Positions 18,334 to 29,442 of a stretch of DNA of 64,000 nt are shown piece after piece. Source of the DNA: Planotetraspora phitsanulokensis (GTDB lineage: Bacteria; Actinomycetota; Actinomycetes; Streptosporangiales; Streptosporangiaceae); NCBI RefSeq assembly GCF_016863295.1, contig NZ_BOOP01000003.1:1-64000 (forward strand), in the 5' to 3' direction. A program made the position numbers and the translations under genes. Below the pieces are notes generated by a model that was not told the DNA's origin, made no database searches, and worked only from the letters and a program-made list of their open reading frames with translations. Each line of letters opens with the position of its first letter. Within the stretch, counting starts at the first letter, position 1.

Positions 18334-19359
18334 TCAGTGCAGCGCCGGCGGGGCCGCGGAGTCTCTGATGACCAGACGGCACGGCATGCGGTGGATCCCG
18401 CTGGTGGCCCGTCCTTCGATGGCGGCGAACAGGTGCTGCGCCGCCGTACGGCCCAGCAGTTCGAGGTTCATGTCCATGGTCGTCAGCGGTGGCCGCGTCT
18501 CCTCCGACAACACCTCCCAGTTGTCGTAGCCGACCACCGCGATGTCGTCGGGCACCCGCCGCCCCCGCTCCCGCGCCGCCTCGATCAGCCCCGCCGCGAT
18601 CTGGTCGCTGCCGCAGAAGACGGCGTCCACCTCGGGATCGGCGTTGAGCACGATCTCGGCCGCGTGCCGTCCCCACCGCTGCGACCAGGCCCCGTAGACC
18701 ACGCGGCCTCCGGACAGGGGGAGCCCCGCCGTCTGGAGCGCGGCCAGCGCCCCCTCCGCGCGCTCTCGCGCGGCCGTGTAGTGCGTCGGGCCCGTGACAT
18801 GGGCGATCCTCCGGCGTCCGAGCGCGATCAGATGGCGTACGGCGTCGCCGGAGCCGGCCACGTCGTCGGGGACGAACGACACGTCCGCCGGATCGTCGGA
18901 CGGCGCATAGGCGTAGACGACGGGGATGGGCAGGTCGCGGCTGATTGAGGGCCGCGGGTCGGTGCTCTCCCCCACGACGATCAGGCCGTCCACGCGCCGG
19001 GCGAGCAGCGTGCGCAGGTAGTGCTGCTCGCGGAAGGCATCACCCCGGGCGTCGCACAGCAGCACCGCGGTCTCGCCCGAGCCGAACGCGTCCTCGGCGC
19101 CGAGCATGACGGGGATGCCGAAGCGGCCCACGCTGTCGCTCGTCAGCAACCCCACCGTGCGGGTCTGACCGGTCACCAGGCTGCGGGCCAGCGGGTTGGG
19201 CTGGAAGGACAGCTCACGTGCGGCGGCGAACACCCGGTCCCGGGTTTCCGCGCGCACCTGGCCCCGCCCGTTGAGCGCCTTGGACGCGGTCGCGATCGAC
19301 ACCCCGGCCAGGGCCGCCACGTCGTTGATCGTGACCGCGCGTGGTCGCTCAGGAGGCAT
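18334..19359 (-). CDS. LacI-family regulator A of the arabinoside locus
   Basis: A 341-residue LacI repressor: HTH at residues 10-32 (TINDVAALAGVSIATASKAL) followed by the hinge and a sugar-binding domain (VGYDNWEVLSEETRPPLTT). It is divergent from the importer at 19627. It closely resembles regulator B at 28237 along the whole chain (LLCDARGD, DGLIVVGES, SQRWGRHAA, FCGSDQIA, VGYDNWE), and the recognition helix T-A-S-K-A-L-N-G is identical. A palindrome GAAAACCTTTTC at 19363-19374 overlaps its own ribosome binding site, which implies autoregulation. Confidence 0.92.
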   Translation of the reverse strand: MPPERPRAVTINDVAALAGVSIATASKALNGRGQVRAETRDRVFAAARELSFQPNPLARSLVTGQTRTVGLLTSDSVGRFGIPVMLGAEDAFGSGETAVLLCDARGDAFREQHYLRTLLARRVDGLIVVGESTDPRPSISRDLPIPVVYAYAPSDDPADVSFVPDDVAGSGDAVRHLIALGRRRIAHVTGPTHYTAARERAEGALAALQTAGLPLSGGRVVYGAWSQRWGRHAAEIVLNADPEVDAVFCGSDQIAAGLIEAARERGRRVPDDIAVVGYDNWEVLSEETRPPLTTMDMNLELLGRTAAQHLFAAIEGRATSGIHRMPCRLVIRDSAAPPALH

Positions 19360-19362
19360 TGT

Positions 19363-19374
19363 GAAAACCTTTTC
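19363..19374. promoter_or_regulatory. LacI operator copy 1 (lacI-A leader)
   Basis: GAAAACCTTTTC, a perfect 5-bp-arm palindrome around CC, lies 4-15 nt upstream of the lacI-A ATG and covers its purine-rich Shine-Dalgarno sequence. It matches the motif found at four other places in this locus. Confidence 0.7.
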
Positions 19375-19473
19375 CTCAGGAACATCACTGTCGCCAGAGA
19401 GCTCGATCTACCGTTCACGCAGACCATAACGGTCGTTCCGACATCACGGCAACCAGCGGCGCCGCCGCGCCCA

Positions 19474-19502
19474 TTGACAGCGCATCAGATGACGTTTACG
19501 TT
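19474..19502 (+). promoter_or_regulatory. Promoter of the second ABC importer operon
   Basis: TTGACA (19474-19479), a 17-bp spacer and TACGTT (19497-19502) form a sigma-70-type promoter. The operator copy at 19506-19517 begins 4 nt after the -10 box, where a repressor would block open-complex formation. Confidence 0.7.
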
Positions 19503-19505
19503 TCC

Positions 19506-19517
19506 GAAAACCTTTTA
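19506..19517. promoter_or_regulatory. LacI operator copy 2 (importer promoter)
   Basis: GAAAACCTTTTA overlaps the predicted transcription start of the importer operon. One arm deviates at its outer base from GAAAA-CC-TTTTC. Confidence 0.65.
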
Positions 19518-19626
19518 TTTTGCTTCACACCGGTGAGATCGCAAGCAGTTGCTTGGTTGGGGCGCGAACACCGGGCATCGGCCGCCGTGACGGACGGCAA
19601 CCCCCCAGAAGTGCAAGGAGCAGGAC

Positions 19627-20901
19627 ATGGCAAAAAGGTTTTCGGCGGCGATAGCCGCTGGGCTCTTGGTGACAGCGCTGGCCGCCTGTGGCGGCGACAA
19701 GACGGAGGGCGGTGCGTCCGGCGCCCCCGACAGCGGGACGACGATCACGATGTGGACCCGCGCGGCCACACAGGCCCAGAGCCAGCGGCTCGTGGACGCC
19801 TACAACAAGACCCACAAGAACCAGGTCAAGCTGACCGTGATCCCGATCGACAACTACCAGCCGCGCATCGCCGCCGCGGCCGGCGCCGGGCAGCTCCCCG
19901 ACATCTTCGCCGCCGACGTGATCTTCGTGCCGAACTACACGTCGCAGGGGCTGTACCTGGACATCACCGACCGGATCGCGAAGCTGCCCTTCAAGGACTC
20001 GCTCGCCGCCTCGCACATGAAGCTCGGGACGTACGAGAACCGGATGTACACCCTTCCGCACACCCTCGACCTGTCGGTGTGGTTCTGGAACAAGGATCTC
20101 TACGAGAAGGCCGGGCTCGACCCGGAGAAGGGCCCGACGACCCTCAAGGAGTTCGCCGCCCAGGCGACCACGGTCCAGGAGAAGCTCGGCAAGGACGGCA
20201 AGGTCCACGGCACCTTCTTCGGCGGCAACTGCGGCGGCTGCTACGTCTTCACCTTCTGGCCTTCGGTCTGGGCGGCCGGCGGCCAGGTCATGAACGAGCA
20301 GGGCACCAAGTCGCTGGTGAACCAGCCGCCGATGACCGACGTCTTCAAGATCTACAAGGACCTGTACGACAAGGGCATCAGCGGGCCGACCACGAAGGAG
20401 GAGCAGGGGGCGACCTGGACGGGCTTCTTCCCCAAGGGGGAGATCGGCGTGATGCCCATGCCGTCCACGACGCTCGGCTCCATGCCGGCTGACATGAAGA
20501 TCGGCGTCGCCCCGATCGCCGGGCCCGACGGCGGCCAGTCCACGTTCGTCGGCGGCGACTCGATCGGCATCTCCGCCACCACCAAGAACGCGGACGCGGC
20601 CTGGGACTTCCTGTCCTGGACGGTCGGCGACGAGGCCCAGGTCGAGGTCCTCGCCAAGAACAAGGACGTGCTGGCCAGGACCGACCTCGCCAGCAACAAG
20701 TACTCCGCGGCCGACCCCAGGGTGGTCCTGATCAACTCCCTGGTCGCCAAGGGGCAGACGCCGTACGCCCTGCGCTTCGGCCAGACCTTCAACGACCCCC
20801 AGGGTCCGTGGCTGCGCTTCGCGCGGGAGGCCGTCTTCGGTGACCCCGCCAAGCTGGCCGAGCTCAACGTCGCCGTCGACAAGTCGCTCGCCCAGTCATG
20901 A
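19627..20901 (+). CDS. ABC importer sugar-binding lipoprotein (arabinoside locus)
   Basis: This 424-residue protein has a lipoprotein signal peptide (MAKRFSAAIAAGLLVTALAA then C21) and a family 1 extracellular solute-binding domain. The pattern of Trp/Tyr-rich segments (FTFWPSVWAAGGQV, TWTGFFPKGEIG) is that of an oligosaccharide-binding CUT1 protein. AAGGAG lies just upstream of the ATG. Codons 2-6 coincide with a copy of the LacI operator motif (19632-19643). It is the first gene of an operon with two permeases and GH127; the following permease ATG overlaps its stop codon (ATGA). No ATPase gene is nearby. Confidence 0.93.
   Translation: MAKRFSAAIAAGLLVTALAACGGDKTEGGASGAPDSGTTITMWTRAATQAQSQRLVDAYNKTHKNQVKLTVIPIDNYQPRIAAAAGAGQLPDIFAADVIFVPNYTSQGLYLDITDRIAKLPFKDSLAASHMKLGTYENRMYTLPHTLDLSVWFWNKDLYEKAGLDPEKGPTTLKEFAAQATTVQEKLGKDGKVHGTFFGGNCGGCYVFTFWPSVWAAGGQVMNEQGTKSLVNQPPMTDVFKIYKDLYDKGISGPTTKEEQGATWTGFFPKGEIGVMPMPSTTLGSMPADMKIGVAPIAGPDGGQSTFVGGDSIGISATTKNADAAWDFLSWTVGDEAQVEVLAKNKDVLARTDLASNKYSAADPRVVLINSLVAKGQTPYALRFGQTFNDPQGPWLRFAREAVFGDPAKLAELNVAVDKSLAQS
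19632..19643. promoter_or_regulatory. LacI operator copy 3 (inside the binding-protein gene start)
   Basis: AAAAAGGTTTTC followed by GG overlaps codons 2-6 of the binding protein, 126 bp downstream of copy 2. The spacing would allow looping or a roadblock. Because the same bases encode Lys-Arg-Phe of a signal peptide, coincidence cannot be excluded. Confidence 0.5.
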
Positions 20902-21815
20902 CGCGACTCGCCTCGCCCCGCGCGGGCCGTGACCTCGACGAGGTCGCGGCCCGCGCGGCCCACGCCCGTGGCCGTCCCCGCTCCCGCAAGTACATCGGGC
21001 TGCTCTACGCGGCTCCGACCGCCCTCATCGTCGGAGTGCTGTTCCTCGCCCCGCTCGCGCTCGTCGTCTGGATGTCGCTGAACAAGTGGCCGCTGCTGGG
21101 CCAGGCGAGGTTCAACGCCCCGGACAACTACACCAAGATCTCCGACGACCCGTTGTTCGTGGACTCGGTGTGGTTCACGCTGAAGTACACCGTGATCATC
21201 ACGGTCCTGCTGTCGGCGGTCGCGCTCGGCCTGGCCCTGCTCGTGCAGAACCGCCGGCCGGGGGTCGCCTTCTTCCGCACGGCCTTCTTCCTCCCGGGCG
21301 CGGTCGGATTCGCGGCGGCCTCCCTGCTGTTCTACGGCATGCTCAATCCGGACTTCGGACCGCTCGGGTTCATGGACGTGAAGTGGATCGGCACGCCGAA
21401 CATGGCGCTGTTCTCCACCATCGCGCTGGTCCTGTGGCGGTTCGCCGGGTTCAACATGCTGATCCTGCTCACCGGCCTGCAGGCGATCCCGGTCCAGGTC
21501 TACGAGGCGGCCAGGACCGACGGCGCCACCAGGTGGCAGACCTTCACCAAGATCACCCTGCCCCTGCTGCGCCCCACGATCGCGCTGATGCTGATCCTGA
21601 GCATCACCGGCTCGCTGCTGGCCTTCGACCAGTTCTTCATCTTCACCAACGGCGGCCCCGACAACAGCACGGTGTCGATGGTCATGGTCATCTACCGCAA
21701 CGCGTTCTTCCGCTTCGACCTCGGCGGAGCCGCGGCGCTGTCCGTCGTGCTGCTGGCGGCACTGGTCGCGCTGAACGCCCTGCAGTTGCGGGTCCTCAGG
21801 GGAGGCGACAAATGA
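20898..21815 (+). CDS. ABC sugar permease (MalF-like, arabinoside locus)
   Basis: A 305-residue membrane protein with six predicted segments and the EAA loop E-A-A-R-T-D-G-A-T. Its ATG overlaps the binding-protein stop (ATGA) and its own stop overlaps the next permease ATG, so the genes are translationally coupled. The first 30 residues are Arg/Ala-rich and cytoplasmic. It forms the channel of the CUT1 importer with the gene at 21812. Confidence 0.93.
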   Translation: MTRLASPRAGRDLDEVAARAAHARGRPRSRKYIGLLYAAPTALIVGVLFLAPLALVVWMSLNKWPLLGQARFNAPDNYTKISDDPLFVDSVWFTLKYTVIITVLLSAVALGLALLVQNRRPGVAFFRTAFFLPGAVGFAAASLLFYGMLNPDFGPLGFMDVKWIGTPNMALFSTIALVLWRFAGFNMLILLTGLQAIPVQVYEAARTDGATRWQTFTKITLPLLRPTIALMLILSITGSLLAFDQFFIFTNGGPDNSTVSMVMVIYRNAFFRFDLGGAAALSVVLLAALVALNALQLRVLRGGDK

Positions 21816-22618
21816 GGCGCACCGGCTCGTATTCCGCCACGTCGGCGCTCGCCGTGCTGTTCCTGTTCCCGCTGGTCTGGAGTGGGTGGTCGTCCCTGAA
21901 GGGGCAGCCGGGCAGCGGCCAGACCAACGGGTACGGCTTCGGCAACTACTCGAGGATGGCCGGCTTCGGCGAGGGCCTGACCTCCTATCTGACCAACAGC
22001 CTGCTGGTGTCCACGATGACGGTCGCGGGGACGCTGGTGGTCTCGGCGCTGGGCGGCTACGCCTTCGCCAGGTTCGCCTTCCCCGGCAAGAACCTGCTGT
22101 TCCTGGCGACGCTCGCCATCCTCATGGTTCCGTACGCGACGATCCTCATCCCGCTCTACGTGCTGCTGGGCAAGATCGGCCTGCAGAACTCCCTGGTCGG
22201 GCTCAGCCTCGTCTTCGTCATGTTCCAGCTGCCGTTCGCGCTCTACATGATGCGCAACTCGTTCGAGGCGGTGCCGCGGGAGCTGGACGAGTCGGCGCTG
22301 GTCGACGGATGCGGCACGTTCCGCGCCTTCACCCTGATCCTTCTCCCTGCGGTCCGGCCTGGTCTGGTCACCGTCGGGCTGTTCGCCTTCCTCGCTTCGT
22401 GGAACGACTTCCTCGCCCCGCTGATCCTGCTCAACGACGGGGCCAGCTTCCCGCTCCCGGTCGCCGTCTGGAGCATGACGCAGCGCACGTTCGGGGCGAT
22501 CGACTACGGGATGCTCGAAGCCGGGGTCATGGTCATGGCCATTCCCTGTCTGCTCCTGTTCATCGTGCTTCAGCGCTACTACGTGCGCGGATTCATGTCA
22601 GGCGCGCTGCGCGGCTAG
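21812..22618 (+). CDS. ABC sugar permease (MalG-like, arabinoside locus)
   Basis: A 268-residue membrane protein with six predicted segments; the EAA-equivalent loop reads E-L-D-E-S-A-L-V-D-G-C-G. It starts at ATG 21812, overlapping the previous stop by 4 nt with GGGGAGG upstream; the much longer open frame around it is a shadow of the preceding gene. It is slightly shorter at the N-terminus than the usual 280-300 residues. GH127 follows after 38 nt. Confidence 0.92.
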   Translation: MRRTGSYSATSALAVLFLFPLVWSGWSSLKGQPGSGQTNGYGFGNYSRMAGFGEGLTSYLTNSLLVSTMTVAGTLVVSALGGYAFARFAFPGKNLLFLATLAILMVPYATILIPLYVLLGKIGLQNSLVGLSLVFVMFQLPFALYMMRNSFEAVPRELDESALVDGCGTFRAFTLILLPAVRPGLVTVGLFAFLASWNDFLAPLILLNDGASFPLPVAVWSMTQRTFGAIDYGMLEAGVMVMAIPCLLLFIVLQRYYVRGFMSGALRG

Positions 22619-22656
22619 CGGCTTCCCTTCGCATGAGAACTCTGAAAAGGACAAAT

Positions 22657-24624
22657 GTGACTGGCATCGTCGAAAGACACACCTCCCCTGTCGCCCCCGT
22701 CGTCCCGCGCGGCGGGGTGTTCACCCCGCTCGGTCTTGATGAATCACGTCTCGCCGGAGGATTCTGGGGGGAGCGCCAGGAACTCAACCACGACGCGATC
22801 ATCCCGCACGCGCTCCACTGGCTGGAGCGTGCGGGCTGGGCGGGGAACTTCGACGACGCCGCCTCCGGCCGGCCGTACGAGCATCGGGGCATGCAGTTCG
22901 CCGACTCCGAGATCTACAAGATCATCGAGGCGATCTCCTGGGATCGGGCGCGTAACGGCCCGTCGGCGGACCTCGACGCCGGCCTCGACACCGCGCTCGA
23001 CGGGCTCGACGCCGCGCTCGACGGGCTCGTCGACCGGCTGGCGGCGGCGCAGGACGCCGACGGCTACCTGCACACGCAGTTCGGCCGGGCCTGGCAGCGC
23101 CCCCGGTACTCGGACCTCTCCTGGGGGCACGAGCTCTACTGTTTCGGCCATCTTCTGCAGTCGGCGGTCGCCAACGCGCGGGCGGGCGCCAACGCCAAAT
23201 ACCTGCAGGTGGCAAGGGCGGTGGCCGACCACGTCTGCGTGATGTTCGGGGAGAACGGGCTGCGCACGGTGTGCGGCCACGCCGAGATCGAGCTCGGCCT
23301 GGTCGAGCTCTACCGGCTCACCGGTGAGCGCCGTTACCTGGACCAGGCGGCGCTGTTCATCGAACGGCGCGGCGCTGGAACGCTCCCCCGCATCGAGTAC
23401 GGCAGCGCCTACGCGCAGGACGACATGCCGGTTCGCGAGGCCACCGTGCTGCGCGGCCACGTCGTGCGGGCCCTCTACCTGGCGGCGGGCGCCACGGACG
23501 TCGCCGTGGAGACCGGCGACACCGAGCTGCTGCACGTTCTCGAGACCCAGTGGGCCAACACCGTCGCGACCCGCAGCTACGTCACGGGCGGCATGGGATC
23601 CCACCACAACGACGAGGCGTTCGGCCTCGACTACGTCCTGCCTCCCGACCGTTCCTATTGCGAGACGTGCGCGGGCGTCGCCTCCATCATGTTCAGCTGG
23701 CGGCTGCTGCTGGCCACCGGGAAGAGCCGGTACGCCGATCTGATCGAGCGCACTTTGTACAACGTCCTCGCGGCGTCGCCCGCACGTGACGGCCGGTCCT
23801 TCTTCTACGCCAACACGCTGCACCAGCGCTCGGTGAGCGTTCCGGCGCCGGTCAACGCCGACGGCCTGTGCCTGAGAGGCGCGAGCAGCCGGCGCGAGGC
23901 GTGGTTCGAGGCGTCCTGCTGCCCCACCAACCTGGCCAGGACGCTGGCGAGCCTCGGCGCGCTCTGGGCGACCAAGGACGCCGAGGGCGTGCAGGTCCAC
24001 CAGTACGGCGGCGCGTCGGTCGACACGGTCCTCGCGGACGGCCGGCGGGTCAGCCTCGACGTGGAGACCGAGTACCCCCACGAGGGCACGATCAGGATCA
24101 CGATCCGGGAGTCCCCGGGCACCCCGTGGACGCTCTCGCTGCGCGTCCCCTCGTGGGCGGACGGCGCGAGCGCGTCGGTGAACGGGTCCGTGGAGGCGGC
24201 CGCGCCGGGTGTCTTCTCGGTCACCAGGGTGTTCGTCCCGGGGGACACGATCACGCTGGAGTTGCCGATCGAGGCGCGGTTCGTCTTCCCGCACCCCCGC
24301 GTCGACGCGGTCAGGGGCTGCGTCGCGGTTCAGCGCGGCCCCGTCGTCCACGCCCTTGAGTCGGTCGACCTGCCCGGTGGCTGGAGCACGGAGTCGGCGG
24401 TCGTCGACGTGTCGAAGCCGCCCCGGTCGGATCAGGACGGCGTGCATGTGCACCTCTCCTCGAGGGATGAGGCCGCGTGGGAGCTTCCGTACACGGCCGA
24501 TGCCGCGGACGCCGCCCCCCGCCTCGCCGCCTCGGCCGAGGTGCCGCTGACGCCGTACTACGACTGGGCGAACAGGGGCCCCTCGACCATGCGCGTCTGG
24601 ATCCCCGCGAGCACGGCCGAGTGA
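22657..24624 (+). CDS. GH127 beta-L-arabinofuranosidase
   Basis: At 655 residues this matches the characterised Bifidobacterium enzyme HypBA1 (658 residues) in length and active-site layout. The GH127 residues are all present: E320 (S-H-H-N-D-E, acid/base), E336 and C338 in C-E-T-C, and C421-C422 in S-C-C-P-T-N, where HypBA1 uses a zinc-bound cysteine (C417) as nucleophile. No signal peptide, so it acts on imported oligosaccharides. I choose GTG 22657 because AAAAGG lies 6 nt upstream; an ATG at 22633 in the same frame has no ribosome binding site. Last gene of the importer operon, followed by a strong hairpin. It should release L-arabinose from beta-L-arabinosides such as those on plant hydroxyproline-rich glycoproteins. 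Confidence 0.93.
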   Translation: MTGIVERHTSPVAPVVPRGGVFTPLGLDESRLAGGFWGERQELNHDAIIPHALHWLERAGWAGNFDDAASGRPYEHRGMQFADSEIYKIIEAISWDRARNGPSADLDAGLDTALDGLDAALDGLVDRLAAAQDADGYLHTQFGRAWQRPRYSDLSWGHELYCFGHLLQSAVANARAGANAKYLQVARAVADHVCVMFGENGLRTVCGHAEIELGLVELYRLTGERRYLDQAALFIERRGAGTLPRIEYGSAYAQDDMPVREATVLRGHVVRALYLAAGATDVAVETGDTELLHVLETQWANTVATRSYVTGGMGSHHNDEAFGLDYVLPPDRSYCETCAGVASIMFSWRLLLATGKSRYADLIERTLYNVLAASPARDGRSFFYANTLHQRSVSVPAPVNADGLCLRGASSRREAWFEASCCPTNLARTLASLGALWATKDAEGVQVHQYGGASVDTVLADGRRVSLDVETEYPHEGTIRITIRESPGTPWTLSLRVPSWADGASASVNGSVEAAAPGVFSVTRVFVPGDTITLELPIEARFVFPHPRVDAVRGCVAVQRGPVVHALESVDLPGGWSTESAVVDVSKPPRSDQDGVHVHLSSRDEAAWELPYTADAADAAPRLAASAEVPLTPYYDWANRGPSTMRVWIPASTAE

Positions 24625-24632
24625 TCGGTCAC

Positions 24633-24689
24633 ACCGGCCGGGGGTCGCGATGGCGTGAGACGTGCGCCATCGCGGATTGAGCGGCCGGT
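24633..24689 (+). terminator. Terminator after GH127
   Basis: The core stem CGCGATGGCG (24646-24655) / CGCCATCGCG (24665-24674) is perfect with a 9-nt loop. It is extended by an outer stem ACCGGCCG (24633-24640) / CGGCCGGT (24682-24689). It begins 9 nt after the GH127 stop. Confidence 0.75.
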
Positions 24690-25051
24690 CTCCGTGAGCC
24701 GCGGTGACAGGTCACTTGCGCAGCCTGTCGCGCACGGTTCGCGGATCGACCGGCCCGGGGCCCGGGGCCGGGTTCGCCTTTCGAACCCGCCCCGGGCCGC
24801 CGTCCGTCCGGGATTCGGACCCTCTGGGAAGGACTTCCGCGTGCGCGCCGGCAGGCGCATCGCGGCGAACCCTGCCTGCTCCGGCGTCCTCGGCTTCCGT
24901 TTCACGGCCGACATGCCGGGTCACCACGCCTGACGACACGAAAGTGATCTCGCACGGGCCTGGGCTCGCTACCCATGCTCCAGCGCAGCGCGCTCGACGT
25001 CTCGCGCGCCGCCGCTCAGCTCGGCTGGAAGGCGGATAGCGGGGACCGCAA
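24690..25051. other. Intergenic stretch between convergent transcription units
   Basis: These 362 bases separate the GH127 terminator from the terminator of the secreted enzyme. Short open frames on both strands are Arg/Pro/Gly-rich and match no family. I see no promoter or repeat of note. Confidence 0.5.
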
Positions 25052-25079
25052 TGGCGGAGGAGGGGGACCTCCTCCGCCA
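25052..25079 (-). terminator. Terminator after the secreted glycosidase gene
   Basis: TGGCGGAGGAGG (25052-25063) and CCTCCTCCGCCA (25068-25079) form a perfect 12-bp stem with a 4-nt loop, 22 nt downstream of the stop of the minus-strand gene at 25102. Confidence 0.75.
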
Positions 25080-25101
25080 CGGGGGTCGGACCGCCGTCAC
25101 C

Positions 25102-27960
25102 TCAGCGGTCGTAGATCTTGATTTCGGTGAGGCCGGACTTCGCGCCGGACGCGTTGGTCATCAACACCCGCACCCGCTGCGCGCTGACCGGGGTGAACCG
25201 GACCACGTTGTAGTTGCCCTGCGGGGTGCTCGGCGTCTTGACCTGGGCCGCGGCGTTGGTCCAGGTGCTGCCGCTGAGGTACTGGATCTGGTAGGCGGAC
25301 GGCGGCCGGTAGGTGCCGCTGGCCGGACGGCTGTCCTTGAAGTAGAGCCGGACCTCGTCGAGGGTCTTGGCGCTGCCGAGGTTCACCTCGTACCAGTCCT
25401 GGGCGTTGGGCGAGCCGCCCGCGCCCCAGTAGGGCTCGTTGACGGGGTAACCGTCCACCGCGCCGCCGGTGCTGGTGCCGCCGGCCGTGTAGGAGGCCGA
25501 CACGGTGGCGCCCTGGGCGAGGTTGGTCAGGTTGGCGGTGAGGTCGACTCCGGCCTTGGCGAGCTCGTCGACGACGCGAGCGTCGGACTGGACGACCTGC
25601 TGCGGCGCCCGGAGCCCGGAGATCGCCGTGCTGAAGGCGACCGTCCCGGTGGTGCCGCTGAAGGTGACCGCGCCGGTGTCGGGGTTCCACACGAACGGCA
25701 CGAGCTGGTTCACCGTCGCGGCGCGGGTGCCGTTGATGTAGATGGAGTAGCCCTGCGGCACTCCGGGGTACTTGACCACGCCGTCGGCCGGGTCGTCCCA
25801 GACGATGGACAGGTCGGCGTTGCGGTACCTGATGTTGTTGACCGCGAAGTTGGACCAGCCGATGTTGATCGGCGACAACTCCACCCTGTTGTCGTTGCGG
25901 GGGCGCAGCCCGGCGACGTCCTCGATCAGCGTCCAGTTGCTGCTGCCGAGGATGTTGTGGTGGATCCACGAGCGGTAGGTGATGGACGAGCCGTTCCAGT
26001 TGGCCCAGAACTCGTTGGCGTCCGGCCACTGGGTGTTGCCCCCGACGTACTGGGCCCAGGTGTTCCAGTAGAGGAGCTTCTTGTAGTCGGTGGCGGTGAT
26101 GTAGGAGCTCGGGTAGTTGCGCAGCGCTGAGGAGAACAGCCGGAACTGCACGGTGGAGTTGATCGTGGAGAAGTTGTTGCTGCCCGGGCTGCCCGCGGCC
26201 GCGGCGGCCGCCTTGTCCTTCTGGTTGGCCGTGTAGAAGGGGAAGAGCGGGTACTCGGCCGGGTCGGTGAACAGCCGCAGCGCCTCGCGGTAGGTCGCCG
26301 TGTTGGGCATGAGCCCCACCGAGTACGGATAGAAGTTGTTGATCTCCTTCCACGGGTCGAGCGCGTTGGTGGCCACGTGGCGGTGCTGCAGCACACGCGC
26401 GGTCGGGTTCCACAACACGTTGACCACCGCGTTCTGCACGCGGGTGGCGAGCGTGCGCATCTCGGCCGCCTTGGTGGTGTTGCCGATCGCGTCGTACGCC
26501 TGGGCGGCCGCCAACGCCCCGCTGTAGACATACGCCGACTCGGTGCGGTCGAGGTTGCCGCTGCGCCAGTGGAACGAGACGGCGTCGGCGTCGTTGCCGG
26601 TCAGCGCGCCCCAGTCGTATTCGATCAGGCCGTTGTTGTCATGGTCGTAGAAGCTGAGCTGGCCCTTCGCGTCGCCTTCGGCGTACTTCGCGAGGTTGGC
26701 CGCGATCCCGGGCTGGCCGCCGTGGATCTGGTAGCTGCGCCAGGCCGCCTCCCCGATGTACTGGGTGTAGCTGTTCGACCAGTTGGCCGGGTCGCCGGGG
26801 TTGTCCAGGAACCTGCCGCCCTTGGAGATCTGACCGACCGAGAGCCAGTCGCCGTACGCGTAGAGCGGGGTGCGCAGGTACTTCAGATCGTCGATGTGCA
26901 TCGGCTGGGTGAGCGCGATGGCGTTGTTGTACCCGAGCGCGCCCTCGACCGAGGTGGGGAACTGGTAGGTCTGGCCGGGCAGGTTGGCGTCGAGGTTGTT
27001 GAACCTCATCAGCCACCATCGGTAGTAGTAGTTCTTCTTGATGGCGGGCTCGGGCGAGTCGAAGTACGGGATGTTCTGCGCCCACCACAGGTTGTACGCC
27101 CGGACGTGCGTGGCGAACGCGGTGGCGTTGGTGTAGCCCTTGTAGGCGTTGTACTCGGTCAGCGACTCGGGGATCTCGTTGGTGGTGAAACCCATCACGA
27201 TCTTGGCGGTGACGGTGGCGCCCGCGCCGACGGTCACCGAACGGTTGAGCCCGCCGCTGGTGACGGTGAACCCGTCGCCGGACAGGCGCGTCGAGAGGGT
27301 CGTCAGGTTGTTGAACGAGTTGCGGCTGCCGGTCAGCTCGTTGCCGCTGCCGGACGTCGCGTACGGCGAGGTGGCCCGCAACTGCAGGGTGGTCGCCGAG
27401 CTGCCCGAGTTGGTGATCGAGAAGTTCGCCACGGCGACGTTGTTCTGGGTGATGAACTTGGTCTGCTCGACGCGGACCGAGCCGCTCGTGTGCACGCTCT
27501 TGAAGTAGCTGGGCGCCTGCCAGCGCTGGGAGACCTGCTCGGTGAAGGTGCCGGGCGTGATCGCCACAGTGAACGCGCTCTGGTTGCTGATGCTCTCGAT
27601 GTAGGCCACGTTGCCGGCGAAGCCGAGCGTCCCGGGGTTGTGGGTCTTCATGAACAGCGCCCGGCCGCGGGTCATCAGGATGCCGCCGTCGGCGTCGGAC
27701 GGATCGCTGCCGGAGCGGCTGAGCAACCGGTCGATCCAGAAGTTCGTGCCCGAGCTCTCGGAGTCGTAGATGGCCTGCATCATGTTGCCGGTGTTGTAGG
27801 CGACGGGTGGCGCCGGCACGGCGGGACCGGTGAAGGTCGGGTATCCGATGGTCTGGGCCGCGGACGCTTGCCGTCCTGGGGCCACGATCGCGCCGGCGAC
27901 GAGGCAGAGCAGGGCCAGGATGACCAATGTTCTCGATCTGGAGCGGGCGTGCACCAGCAT
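25102..27960 (-). CDS. Secreted (alpha/alpha)6-type glycoside hydrolase-like protein with C-terminal discoidin/F5-8C domain
   Basis: A 952-residue exported protein: Sec signal peptide (MLVHARSRSRTLVILALLCL then an Ala-rich stretch, cleavage after A-S-A near residue 34), an N-terminal beta-sandwich region (about 40-260), a long helical region with repeated aromatic motifs (NYYYRWWLMR, LDPWKEINNFYPYS, YRSWIHHNI) resembling the MGH1/GH63-like helical barrels (about 270-700), a beta region, and an F5/8 type C or CBM32-like domain (about 810-952; WYEVNLGSAKTLDEVRLYF). I cannot name a CAZy family. GAGGTGA precedes the ATG. It is divergent from lacI-B with an operator between them, so it probably makes the oligosaccharides imported by the neighbouring ABC system. 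Confidence 0.8.
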   Translation of the reverse strand: MLVHARSRSRTLVILALLCLVAGAIVAPGRQASAAQTIGYPTFTGPAVPAPPVAYNTGNMMQAIYDSESSGTNFWIDRLLSRSGSDPSDADGGILMTRGRALFMKTHNPGTLGFAGNVAYIESISNQSAFTVAITPGTFTEQVSQRWQAPSYFKSVHTSGSVRVEQTKFITQNNVAVANFSITNSGSSATTLQLRATSPYATSGSGNELTGSRNSFNNLTTLSTRLSGDGFTVTSGGLNRSVTVGAGATVTAKIVMGFTTNEIPESLTEYNAYKGYTNATAFATHVRAYNLWWAQNIPYFDSPEPAIKKNYYYRWWLMRFNNLDANLPGQTYQFPTSVEGALGYNNAIALTQPMHIDDLKYLRTPLYAYGDWLSVGQISKGGRFLDNPGDPANWSNSYTQYIGEAAWRSYQIHGGQPGIAANLAKYAEGDAKGQLSFYDHDNNGLIEYDWGALTGNDADAVSFHWRSGNLDRTESAYVYSGALAAAQAYDAIGNTTKAAEMRTLATRVQNAVVNVLWNPTARVLQHRHVATNALDPWKEINNFYPYSVGLMPNTATYREALRLFTDPAEYPLFPFYTANQKDKAAAAAAGSPGSNNFSTINSTVQFRLFSSALRNYPSSYITATDYKKLLYWNTWAQYVGGNTQWPDANEFWANWNGSSITYRSWIHHNILGSSNWTLIEDVAGLRPRNDNRVELSPINIGWSNFAVNNIRYRNADLSIVWDDPADGVVKYPGVPQGYSIYINGTRAATVNQLVPFVWNPDTGAVTFSGTTGTVAFSTAISGLRAPQQVVQSDARVVDELAKAGVDLTANLTNLAQGATVSASYTAGGTSTGGAVDGYPVNEPYWGAGGSPNAQDWYEVNLGSAKTLDEVRLYFKDSRPASGTYRPPSAYQIQYLSGSTWTNAAAQVKTPSTPQGNYNVVRFTPVSAQRVRVLMTNASGAKSGLTEIKIYDR

Positions 27961-28094
27961 TGCGTCACCTCTTTCGGGGGGTGGACTGGCGGGGGGGTGC
28001 GGAGGGTCGAGAGGTGCGGTCGGGGGTGGAAAAGCGGGGGTGCGATTCGTGCCGACGCGCCCGGGATGCGTCGCTTCCGTTCACGATCGACTCC

Positions 28095-28106
28095 GAAAAG
28101 GTTTTC
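28095..28106. promoter_or_regulatory. LacI operator copy 4 (between secreted enzyme and lacI-B)
   Basis: GAAAAGGTTTTC lies inside a perfect 7-bp-arm palindrome, arms CCGAAAA and TTTTCGG around GG (28093-28108). It is the best copy of the motif and lies about 135 nt upstream of the secreted enzyme's ATG. Confidence 0.75.
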
Positions 28107-28148
28107 GGCAACGTTAAATTTCAATAACCAGGGCCCTGCGGCAAAGTG

Positions 28149-28177
28149 TTGTGTCAGGGAGATCTTCGACATAAGCT
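28149..28177 (+). promoter_or_regulatory. Candidate promoter of lacI-B
   Basis: TTGTGT (28149-28154), 17 bp, TAAGCT (28172-28177). A plausible but imperfect sigma-70 pair, giving a leader of about 50 nt before the GTG at 28237. Confidence 0.45.
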
Positions 28178-28223
28178 CAGGCAACGCGCCCCTACCGACT
28201 CAGTCGGCATCGTGAAACGCTTT

Positions 28224-28235
28224 CGAAAGGTTTTC
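28224..28235. promoter_or_regulatory. LacI operator copy 5 (lacI-B leader)
   Basis: CGAAAGGTTTTC followed by GG differs from GAAAAGGTTTTC at two outer left-arm positions and lies directly before the lacI-B GTG, covering its Shine-Dalgarno sequence, as copy 1 does for lacI-A. A further dyad GAAACGCTTTC (28214-28224) abuts it. Confidence 0.6.
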
Positions 28236-28236
28236 G

Positions 28237-29442
28237 GTGGGCCGACGTCGTTCGGAAACGGTGACCCTCGCTGACGTGGCCAAACTGGCCGGGGTCTCCG
28301 TCTCGACGGCCTCCAAGGCGCTCAACGGAAAACCCGAGGTCGCCGACGCGACCCGGTCGCGTGTACGGCACGCCGCCGCGGAGCTCGCCTTCCACCCCAA
28401 CCCGCTCGCCCGCGGGCTGATCTCCGGCCGCACCCGCACCATCGGGCTGCTCACCGACGAGCTCGGCGGCCGCTTCTCCATGCCGGTGCTGCTGGGCGTG
28501 GAGAACGCCCTGGGCAACGAGGAGATGTCGGTGGTGCTCTGCGACGCCCGCGGCGACTCCATCCGCCGGCAGCACTACATCCGCACCCTGGTGGCCCGGC
28601 AGGTCGACGGGTTCATCATCCTCGGCGAGAGCAACGACCTGCGCCCGTCTCTGACCCGCGACATCCCGGTGCCCGTGGTCTACGTGTACGGGGAATCCGG
28701 CGACCCCGGGGACCTGTCGATCCTCGCCGACGACGAGGGCGGCGCGCGCCTCGCCGCCGAACACCTCATCTCTCTGCAGAGGCGGCATGTCGGGCACATC
28801 ACGGGCCCGGTGCTGTACCGCGCCGCGCGTGACCGGGCGGCCGCTCTGCGCCGGGTGCTGCACGACTCCGGGCTGGACCTGGCCGGCGGCGAGCCCTTGC
28901 ACGGCGAGTGGTCGCGCCGCTGGGGACGGCACGCGGCGCACATGCTGGTCACCGCCGACCCCGACGTGGACGCGATCTTCTGTGGCAACGACCAGATCGC
29001 CGACGGCGTCTGCGAGGCGCTGACGAACCTCGGGCGGCGCATCCCCGACGACGTCGCGGTGGTGGGTTACGACAACTGGGAGACTCTGGCGGCCGACTGC
29101 CGGCCACCGCTGACCACCATCGACCTGAACCTGGAGCAACTGGGCGCCGTCGCGGTGGAACACCTGTCCGCCGCCCTCGACGGGCACCGCACGACCGGTG
29201 TCATCCGCCATCCGGGACGGCTGGTCGTCCGCGAGTCGACCGGCCCGTCACCCCACCGCTCAGGGCGTGGGCTCGGGGGACGCCTCGGCCCGGACCACGC
29301 CGGCGGCCCGCCGATCACCCGTGCGCAGGACGCCCGCGAACACGGCGAGCCCGAACGCGAGCGCCGTCACCACACCGAACGACACCACGAGGCTGGTCGC
29401 GTCGGCGATCGTCCCGATGACGAACGGGGCGATGAGGCCTGA
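28237..29442 (+). CDS. LacI-family regulator B of the arabinoside locus, with run-on C-terminus
   Basis: LacI repressor with HTH (TLADVAKLAGVSVSTASKAL) and sugar-binding domain (VGYDNWETLAADCRPPLTT), paralogous to regulator A at 18334. Family homology ends near residue 340 (GRLVVRESTGPSP); the frame then continues for about 60 Arg/His/Gly-rich residues that lie antisense to the MFS gene and look like non-functional run-on, giving 401 residues. The original stop codon seems to have been lost. The start is GTG 28237 with AAAGG upstream. It is divergent from the secreted enzyme and probably controls it, itself and the importer through the GAAAA-SS-TTTTC operators. Confidence 0.9.
   Translation: MGRRRSETVTLADVAKLAGVSVSTASKALNGKPEVADATRSRVRHAAAELAFHPNPLARGLISGRTRTIGLLTDELGGRFSMPVLLGVENALGNEEMSVVLCDARGDSIRRQHYIRTLVARQVDGFIILGESNDLRPSLTRDIPVPVVYVYGESGDPGDLSILADDEGGARLAAEHLISLQRRHVGHITGPVLYRAARDRAAALRRVLHDSGLDLAGGEPLHGEWSRRWGRHAAHMLVTADPDVDAIFCGNDQIADGVCEALTNLGRRIPDDVAVVGYDNWETLAADCRPPLTTIDLNLEQLGAVAVEHLSAALDGHRTTGVIRHPGRLVVRESTGPSPHRSGRGLGGRLGPDHAGGPPITRAQDAREHGEPERERRHHTERHHEAGRVGDRPDDERGDEA

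Follow-up and report, generated by a model that had tools for sequence, protein, structure and literature searches.

Introduction

The closest described counterpart of the locus analysed here is the BauR1 regulon of Bifidobacterium. According to the available part of the study describing it (PMC5928203), a single LacI-family repressor is predicted to act on its own gene, on hypBA1 (glycoside hydrolase family GH127), on hypBA2 (GH121) and on an ATP-binding cassette (ABC) importer for beta-arabino-oligosaccharides; BauR1 and BauR2 are given there as two groups, for 9 and 5 genomes, and one sentence of the same text interchanges the families, GH127 and GH121, to which the hypBA1 and hypBA2 enzymes belong. 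A second precedent is the GalR/GalS pair of Escherichia coli, described in the accessible sections of PMC3877293 as 54% identical and as sharing a common operator and effector, with GalR also regulating galR and galS (PMC3877293, PMC5110547). Here, we investigated a 64,000-nt stretch of DNA (hereafter, the window; positions 1–64,000 of contig NZ_BOOP01000003.1, assembly GCF_016863295.1) from Planotetraspora phitsanulokensis, whose genome comprises 9.17 Mb in 95 contigs. It carries two LacI-family genes, lacI-A and lacI-B, that flank importer, GH127 and GH121 genes, and palindromic dyads recur around this gene set. Our comparisons across relatives indicate that the dyads are conserved predicted operators, probably read by both repressors.

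Results

Searched at up to two mismatches, the pattern GAAAASSTTTTC occurs in the window at exactly five places (1.08 expected; none of 100 shuffles reached five). They coincide with the five dyads listed in a preliminary description of this DNA, at 19363 (no mismatch), 19506 (one), 19632 (one), 28095 (none) and 28224 (two), so that both the sites and their enrichment at the locus are borne out. Operator 1 (19363..19374) lies in the lacI-A leader, where the lacI-A strand reads GAAAAGGTTTTC, with GG at the Shine–Dalgarno position. Operator 2 (19506..19517) begins 3 bp past the −10 hexamer of the forward-strand importer promoter (19474..19502; −35 TTGACA at 19474–19479, a 17-bp spacer and −10 TACGTT at 19497–19502), over the expected transcription start, and operator 3 (19632..19643) falls within codons 2–6 of the binding-protein gene. 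Operator 4, CCGAAAAGGTTTTCGG (28093..28108), stands between the GH121 gene and lacI-B and is indeed the 7-bp-arm palindrome reported at 28095, CCGAAAA-GG-TTTTCGG. Operator 5, in the lacI-B leader, is present as well, but the form first given for it is better written CGAAA-GGT-TTTCG (28224..28236), with a 3-bp spacer; it too has GG at the Shine–Dalgarno position. As had been claimed, two sites therefore cover the regulators' likely Shine–Dalgarno sequences, the GG lying, by hand count, 8 nt from the start codon in lacI-A and 6 nt in lacI-B.

To collect relatives' loci, the LacI pair was used to scan a single genome from each species, and the best 80 of 195 relatives yielded 87 A- or B-type LacI genes with 86 usable upstream regions (the LacI-B gene of locus L018, whose start is misplaced, was left out). 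Within 300 bp upstream, 84 of the 86 genes have a site at no more than one mismatch, compared with 0.3% of shuffles; 36 regions match exactly, 48 with one mismatch and 2 with two. Because the loci were chosen by protein and not by DNA, this conservation is an independent test of the motif. When all 1024 palindromes of the form w5-N2-rc(w5) were counted, GAAAA-N2-TTTTC ranked first both in 18 A-clade representatives (17 matches; next 11) and in 9 B-clade representatives (9 matches; next 3). The conserved palindromic site thus accompanies importer, enzyme and regulator genes in the window, and lacI and importer promoters in relatives. The nearest relatives are other Planotetraspora species, with LacI-A 98–99% identical in P. 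kaengkrachanensis (L014). Operator 3 is also found in L014, L015, L016 and L076, and the position of operator 4, hence a GH121-linked site, is kept in the genomes behind L014–L016, L019 and L020, all of which hold both repressors.

The two repressors fall into separate, well-supported groups: in a quick tree, the A clade (65 rows) and the B clade (21 rows) have supports of 95 and 99 in the Shimodaira–Hasegawa-like approximate likelihood ratio test (SH-aLRT), with one window protein in each. Among the 41 genomes behind the loci, 13 encode a B-grade protein (71–77% identical to LacI-B) without an A-grade one (57–62%), 6 encode both, and 22 are without a B-grade protein. In the family, for which ten candidates were scored in each of 200 genomes, B (at least 68%) is present in 8 genomes, 6 of them also holding A and 2 holding B alone, and A alone is present in 30; the two genes occur together in three genera. 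We exploited the single-clade genomes to build separate matrices. The strict A matrix, from 17 A-type loci whose genomes were checked to be without B (loci L017, L076 and L047 being excluded and no Planotetraspora included), ranks the five sites 1–5 in the 64 kb, with scores of 13.7–23.5 against 10.1 for the best other position. So does the wide A matrix, which takes in 61 sites from all A-type loci outside the six co-resident ones, without the second, 60%-identical LacI of L029 and including P. thailandica (L017), L076 and L047, whose genome holds B. The B-only matrix (13 loci) places four sites at ranks 1–4 (16.4–25.9), and 28224 ties for ranks 5–6 at 11.6 with one unrelated position. The promoter consensus is GCCGAAAAGGTTTTCG in B-only genomes (turned to the GG strand) versus TAAAAGGTTTTCGG in A genomes.

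Since matrices from single-clade genomes recover the window sites, either repressor, where alone, goes with the operator, and the core common to A-only and B-only genomes suggests that both read the dyads. The earlier proposal that both LacI proteins may bind the same sites stands insofar as each clade alone carries the same core, but it has less support where LacI-B on the importer dyads is concerned. Under the A-only matrix, no position of the whole window scores higher than the B-type site 28095, while 19506 is weaker under the B matrix, which makes LacI-A at LacI-B sites the safer half of the cross-talk. LacI-A is accordingly predicted to bind all sites; that LacI-B also binds those of the importer is less certain.

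The relatives' loci also yielded several observations in their own right. In Sphaerisporangium corydalis (L020/L127), lacI-B and lacI-A lie in tandem beside GH121, and genes of both grades, A and B, are present twice in this genome. Acrocarpospora corrugata (L076) has a LacI-A 96% identical and an importer 89–91% identical to those of the window, a near-identity that, given the different genus, looks like cassette transfer; its assembly has two more A-type genes, 79% and 76% identical (L026, L061). The lacI locus of a 12.4-Mb genome recorded as Rhodococcus rhodnii (L079) is near-identical to that of Kibdelosporangium aridum (L080), so the record name may be wrong. An exact operator in Microbispora (L126:10264-10275) occupies an odd position for a repressor site, separating the matched 3′ end of lacI-B from that of the GH127 gene facing it. 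Finally, GAAAACGCTTTC lies inside the lacI coding sequence, at E-N-A-F codons, in seven loci (L061–L066 and L069, at 10247), as either an intragenic operator or inherited codons.

The placement of the sites relative to promoters and leaders is likewise conserved. Of the relatives' 64 A-type loci, 52 have a perfect TTGACA plus TAnnnT at 16–18 bp ahead of the importer site (one of 3400 shuffled segments), and in 46 of the 64 the −10 element ends 3 bp before the dyad, so that the operator covers the expected transcription start. Operator 3 includes a TTT codon, a codon not used once among 165 phenylalanine codons in ten window genes (0/165), which speaks for selection on DNA at this site. Leader dyads were defined as CGAAA-Nk-TTTCG within 45 bp of the start, with shuffles that preserve the Shine–Dalgarno core, and counted in 67 A-type genes (three Kibdelosporangium-type ones included; the second LacI of L029, 60% identical, excluded) and 18 B genes. 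At up to two mismatches, 62 of the 67 A-type genes have one (shuffles 10%); at up to one mismatch, the numbers are 54 of 67 in A (shuffles 1.0%) and 18 of 18 in B (shuffles 0.6%). The spacer is 4 bp in 51/67 A-type genes and 3 bp in 17/18 B genes, and AAGG is found inside the dyad in 61/67 and 16/18, respectively. Ahead of operator 5 and overlapping it, with centres 11 bp apart, there is a weaker, probable extra dyad, TGAAA-CGC-TTTCG (28213..28225); position 28212 ranks 6 under the wide and 8 under the strict A matrix, and among the 18 B-clade genes there are 2 whose best leader dyad has the form CGAAACGCTTTCG. Operators centred on Shine–Dalgarno sequences, leader spacers that are mostly 4 bp in A and 3 bp in B and the probable extra dyad before lacI-B are new details of this locus; on operators over Shine–Dalgarno sequences, the top-ranking literature matches held nothing on point.

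Across the whole genome, exact GAAAASSTTTTC occurs at two places, both in the window. At up to one mismatch there are nine, four of them in the window and two at C34:93718 and C34:93805, and the probability that at least four of nine places fall within 0.7% of the genome is 2.9e-7. Because a backwards control pattern also matches nine places at this threshold, the signal consists in clustering at the window and C34 loci and not in a genome-wide excess; the genome-wide search named earlier as a check thus supports the locus but not a raised total. The remaining three places are at C28, C4 and C8 (L011–L013), those of L011 and L013 inside open frames of 3.2 and 3.4 kb and that of L012 in none longer than 0.8 kb. 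A wider 14-mer at up to three mismatches gave 972 matches versus 325 for its control. The C34 pair of operator-like sites, each with one mismatch, lies where a second copy of the lacI/importer cassette has decayed (C34:92.3–94.2 kb; L010:8300-10200). What remains of this copy is part of lacI (50% identity across 110 aligned positions) and residues 4–61 of the binding protein. It stands between a second GH121 gene (1578 amino acids, 43% identical) and a GH127-like gene, with a GH43-like gene also beside it; the GH127-like and GH43-like labels come from reading and tblastn.

Among 30 LacI loci retrieved from this genome, in which 38 matches were found (29 different LacI genes were read, as the L101 row repeats the L096 gene), a site at up to one mismatch is present only at the LacI-A and LacI-B loci, the 28 stretches L096–L123 having none. 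One of these genes encodes a third paralogue (C49:24856-25908; L096), 56% identical to LacI-A and with a different upstream sequence, GGAAAACGGTTGCC; it adjoins what by eye resembles a sugar-binding protein gene. LacI-A and LacI-B do share T-A-S-K-A-L-N-G, as had been noted, at residues 24–31. We considered this string as a sufficient sign of a common operator and rejected it, since the C49 paralogue has it, yet shows upstream just a two-mismatch GAAAACGGTTGC.

LacI-A and LacI-B are 57% identical, and both have PF00356 and PF13377 above cut-off, the domain plan of the LacI/GalR family. The intercalating hinge leucine of LacI, L56, aligns with L61 in both. Recognition-helix majority residues 24–30 are identical in the two clades; residues 22–23, aligned with E. 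coli LacI Y17/Q18, are I-A in LacI-A and V-S in LacI-B. Neither clade varies at the positions that align with R197, W220 and D274 of LacI, while the majority residues differ (A, B) at those aligned with S69 (S, D), P76 (G, S), L148 (A, V), F161 (P, A) and N246 (S, N), which we take to be inducer-contacting positions. Clade-specific residues at positions matching effector contacts of LacI would permit different ligands, and two-signal control by the pair is therefore possible. Codon changes relative to L014 are mostly silent in both genes (43 silent to 6 in lacI-A; 41 to 4 in lacI-B), and both frames are intact.

The gene order is lacI-A (−), importer genes and GH127 (+), GH121 (−), lacI-B (+). 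lacI-A (18334..19359, minus strand) encodes 341 amino acids with the Pfam domains LacI and Peripla_BP_3; lacI-B (28237..29442, plus strand), likewise assigned by Pfam, has an open frame whose final ~60 residues extend past the conserved domain. The importer genes, all on the plus strand, encode a sugar-binding protein (19627..20901; SBP_bac_1), a first permease (20898..21815; BPD_transp_1) and, in the open frame directly downstream, a second permease named by position and translation (21812..22618). They are followed by the gene of a GH127 beta-L-arabinofuranosidase of the HypBA1 type (22657..24624, plus strand), which has three GH127 Pfam domains and structure matches to 4qjy (E 7e-93) and the HypBA1 entry 3wkw (E 6e-75), and whose product is presumably cytoplasmic. 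The GH121 beta-L-arabinobiosidase gene of the HypBA2 type (25102..27960, minus strand), identified by Pfam and a match to 6m5a (E 1e-182), includes an F5/8 type C domain; judged by eye from its N-terminus, the enzyme appears to be secreted. Residues aligned with the HypBA2 acidic triad E383, D515 and E713 (numbering from the accessible text of PMC7263609; hand-derived chain offset of 31) are present.

The abstract of a 2020 paper on GH121 structure places this family mainly in bifidobacteria and Xanthomonas; we found GH121-like genes in 22 of 394 genomes of the class, in four families. Of 19 GH121-bearing loci from the class search (L133–L151; a few kb each), 7 have a site at up to one mismatch and 12 have none. 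In Nonomuraea and Catellatospora, GH121 has GH127 or importer genes ahead of it on its own strand, with which it may be co-read, and in the A-type Streptomyces loci L025 and L033 sites lie between lacI-A and GH121.

Discussion

From the observed sites, their conservation and link to each clade alone, the promoter geometry and the gene content, we infer binding, repression, autoregulation, an inducer and some extent of LacI-B action on LacI-A sites. The likely overall picture is a substrate-induced beta-L-arabinofuranosyl oligosaccharide regulon under two LacI isorepressors reading one CCGAAAASSTTTTCGG-like operator. GH121 outside the cell, the ABC importer, and GH127 inside would together process beta-L-arabinofuranosyl oligosaccharides of plant hydroxyproline-rich glycoproteins. 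Without inducer, repressor dimers would occupy 19506, 19632, 28095 and both regulator leaders (19363; 28224–28236), so that the importer and enzyme genes would be repressed together with both repressor genes, and cross- and autoregulation would result; an imported arabinoside would then free the repressors from their operators.

Several observations weigh against this picture or narrow its reach. The 86 upstream regions are not statistically independent of each other, because orthologous sites are related. Under the B-only matrix, 19506 and 19363 score just 16.4 of 25.9, with the best unrelated position at 11.6, and A-type importer sites differ from B-type ones in one arm (mostly TAAAA or TTAAA versus CGAAAA). 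In G177 (L125), a genome holding B without A, 18 kb contain nothing that matches the site with one mismatch or fewer, and G060 has such a site. As to the enzyme, the 700 bp upstream of GH121 in relatives contain a site at up to one mismatch for 7 of 44 genes and none for the other 37, the GH121 gene of an A-only sister species (L152) has none in the 12.5 kb read, and in Acrocarpospora and Herbidospora GH121 mostly stands apart. Because most GH121 genes thus lack a site of their own and some stand apart, control of GH121 by the operator is not general. In a Microbispora pair, LacI-B is less constrained: its codon changes are silent in 34 cases and replacing in 20, against 51 and 15 for LacI-A. 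The 24 distinct spacings between operator sites, moreover, are without 10.5-bp helical phasing (R 0.18, p ~0.46), and DNA looping by phased operators was rejected on these grounds.

Within the two-isorepressor regulon, the signals may be arranged in more than one way. That the pair acts as same-signal isorepressors in the manner of GalR/GalS, with one sugar and a second copy tuning dosage or dynamics, is a serious if tentative possibility, to which the 57% identity, the invariant positions aligned with R197, W220 and D274 and the precedent itself (PMC3877293, as far as accessible) all point; the clade-specific majority residues at the positions aligned with S69, P76, L148, F161 and N246 and the co-occurrence of both genes in three genera speak against it. 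A natural AND gate, with one operator and different arabinoside inducers for LacI-A and LacI-B, seems somewhat unlikely. If it existed, full induction of GH121 and importer would occur only with both ligands in the cell, for instance, one short beta-arabinoside and another that is longer or has a different linkage, and operators embedded in Shine–Dalgarno sequences would link both repressor levels to the same signals.

It is unlikely, in our view, that the window instead holds two largely insulated modules side by side, LacI-A with importer and GH127, and LacI-B with GH121, with flanks (TAAAA...CGG versus CCGAAAA...TTTTCGG) and 4- or 3-bp leader spacers keeping each repressor mostly on its own sites. 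Such a division would account for the difference between the site types in one arm and in the leader spacer, and for a GH121-linked site in the co-resident genomes L014–L016, L019 and L020 that is missing near GH121 of the A-only sister species. However, it sits poorly with the top rank of the B-type site 28095 under the A-only matrix, with B promoter sites that also have a 4-bp spacer, with near-identical recognition helices and with the Streptomyces sites between lacI-A and GH121.

Much less probable still is that all control lies with one repressor, the second being silent or vestigial. Co-resident genomes are indeed a minority in the family, and the weaker constraint on LacI-B in Microbispora would fit, but within Planotetraspora both frames are intact and codon changes are mostly silent. 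That the sites are chance A+T-rich islands in a G+C-rich genome is hardly credible: the equal genome-wide count of the backwards control is all that favours it, against the clustering of the sites, their conservation in relatives, the palindrome ranking and the single-clade matrices.

With the two-isorepressor regulon, the beta-arabinoside regulon predicted in Bifidobacterium would reach into soil actinomycetes, where a ready operator matrix now accompanies it, and operators built around Shine–Dalgarno sequences would be a compact form of autoregulation. The regulon also offers a natural test case of how two paralogous LacI repressors partition or jointly use a single set of operators: since some genomes have A alone, others B alone and others both, evolutionary controls are at hand for measuring specificity, cross-talk and the divergence of effectors.

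Two-signal control of this enzyme set by two related repressors had initially been proposed as something not known to be described. A single LacI repressor for the set is already predicted in Bifidobacterium, but for two co-resident repressors of the GH127/GH121/importer set no report was found among the top-ranking matches in open-licence literature. Compared with E. coli LacI, the window proteins share the domain plan and the residues aligned with R197, W220 and D274; the operator differs, and LacI-A is without the C-terminal stretch that makes LacI a tetramer. Judged by the gene content described for it in the accessible part of its source, the BauR1 regulon is similar in that the lacI genes of the window adjoin GH127, GH121 and ABC importer genes, and it differs in having one repressor per regulon where the Planotetraspora window has two. 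With GalR and GalS, as portrayed in the excerpts at hand, the window shares a pair of LacI-family paralogues of comparable identity and, by prediction, a common operator; unlike galR and galS, which lie at distinct loci and answer to one effector, both window genes flank the regulon and their products have clade-specific pocket residues. LacI-A and LacI-B are most likely GalR/GalS-like isorepressors with cross- and autoregulation, and, by analogy, the window is a combination of a BauR1-type regulon with a GalR/GalS-type pair, that is, a known regulatory style in a new setting.

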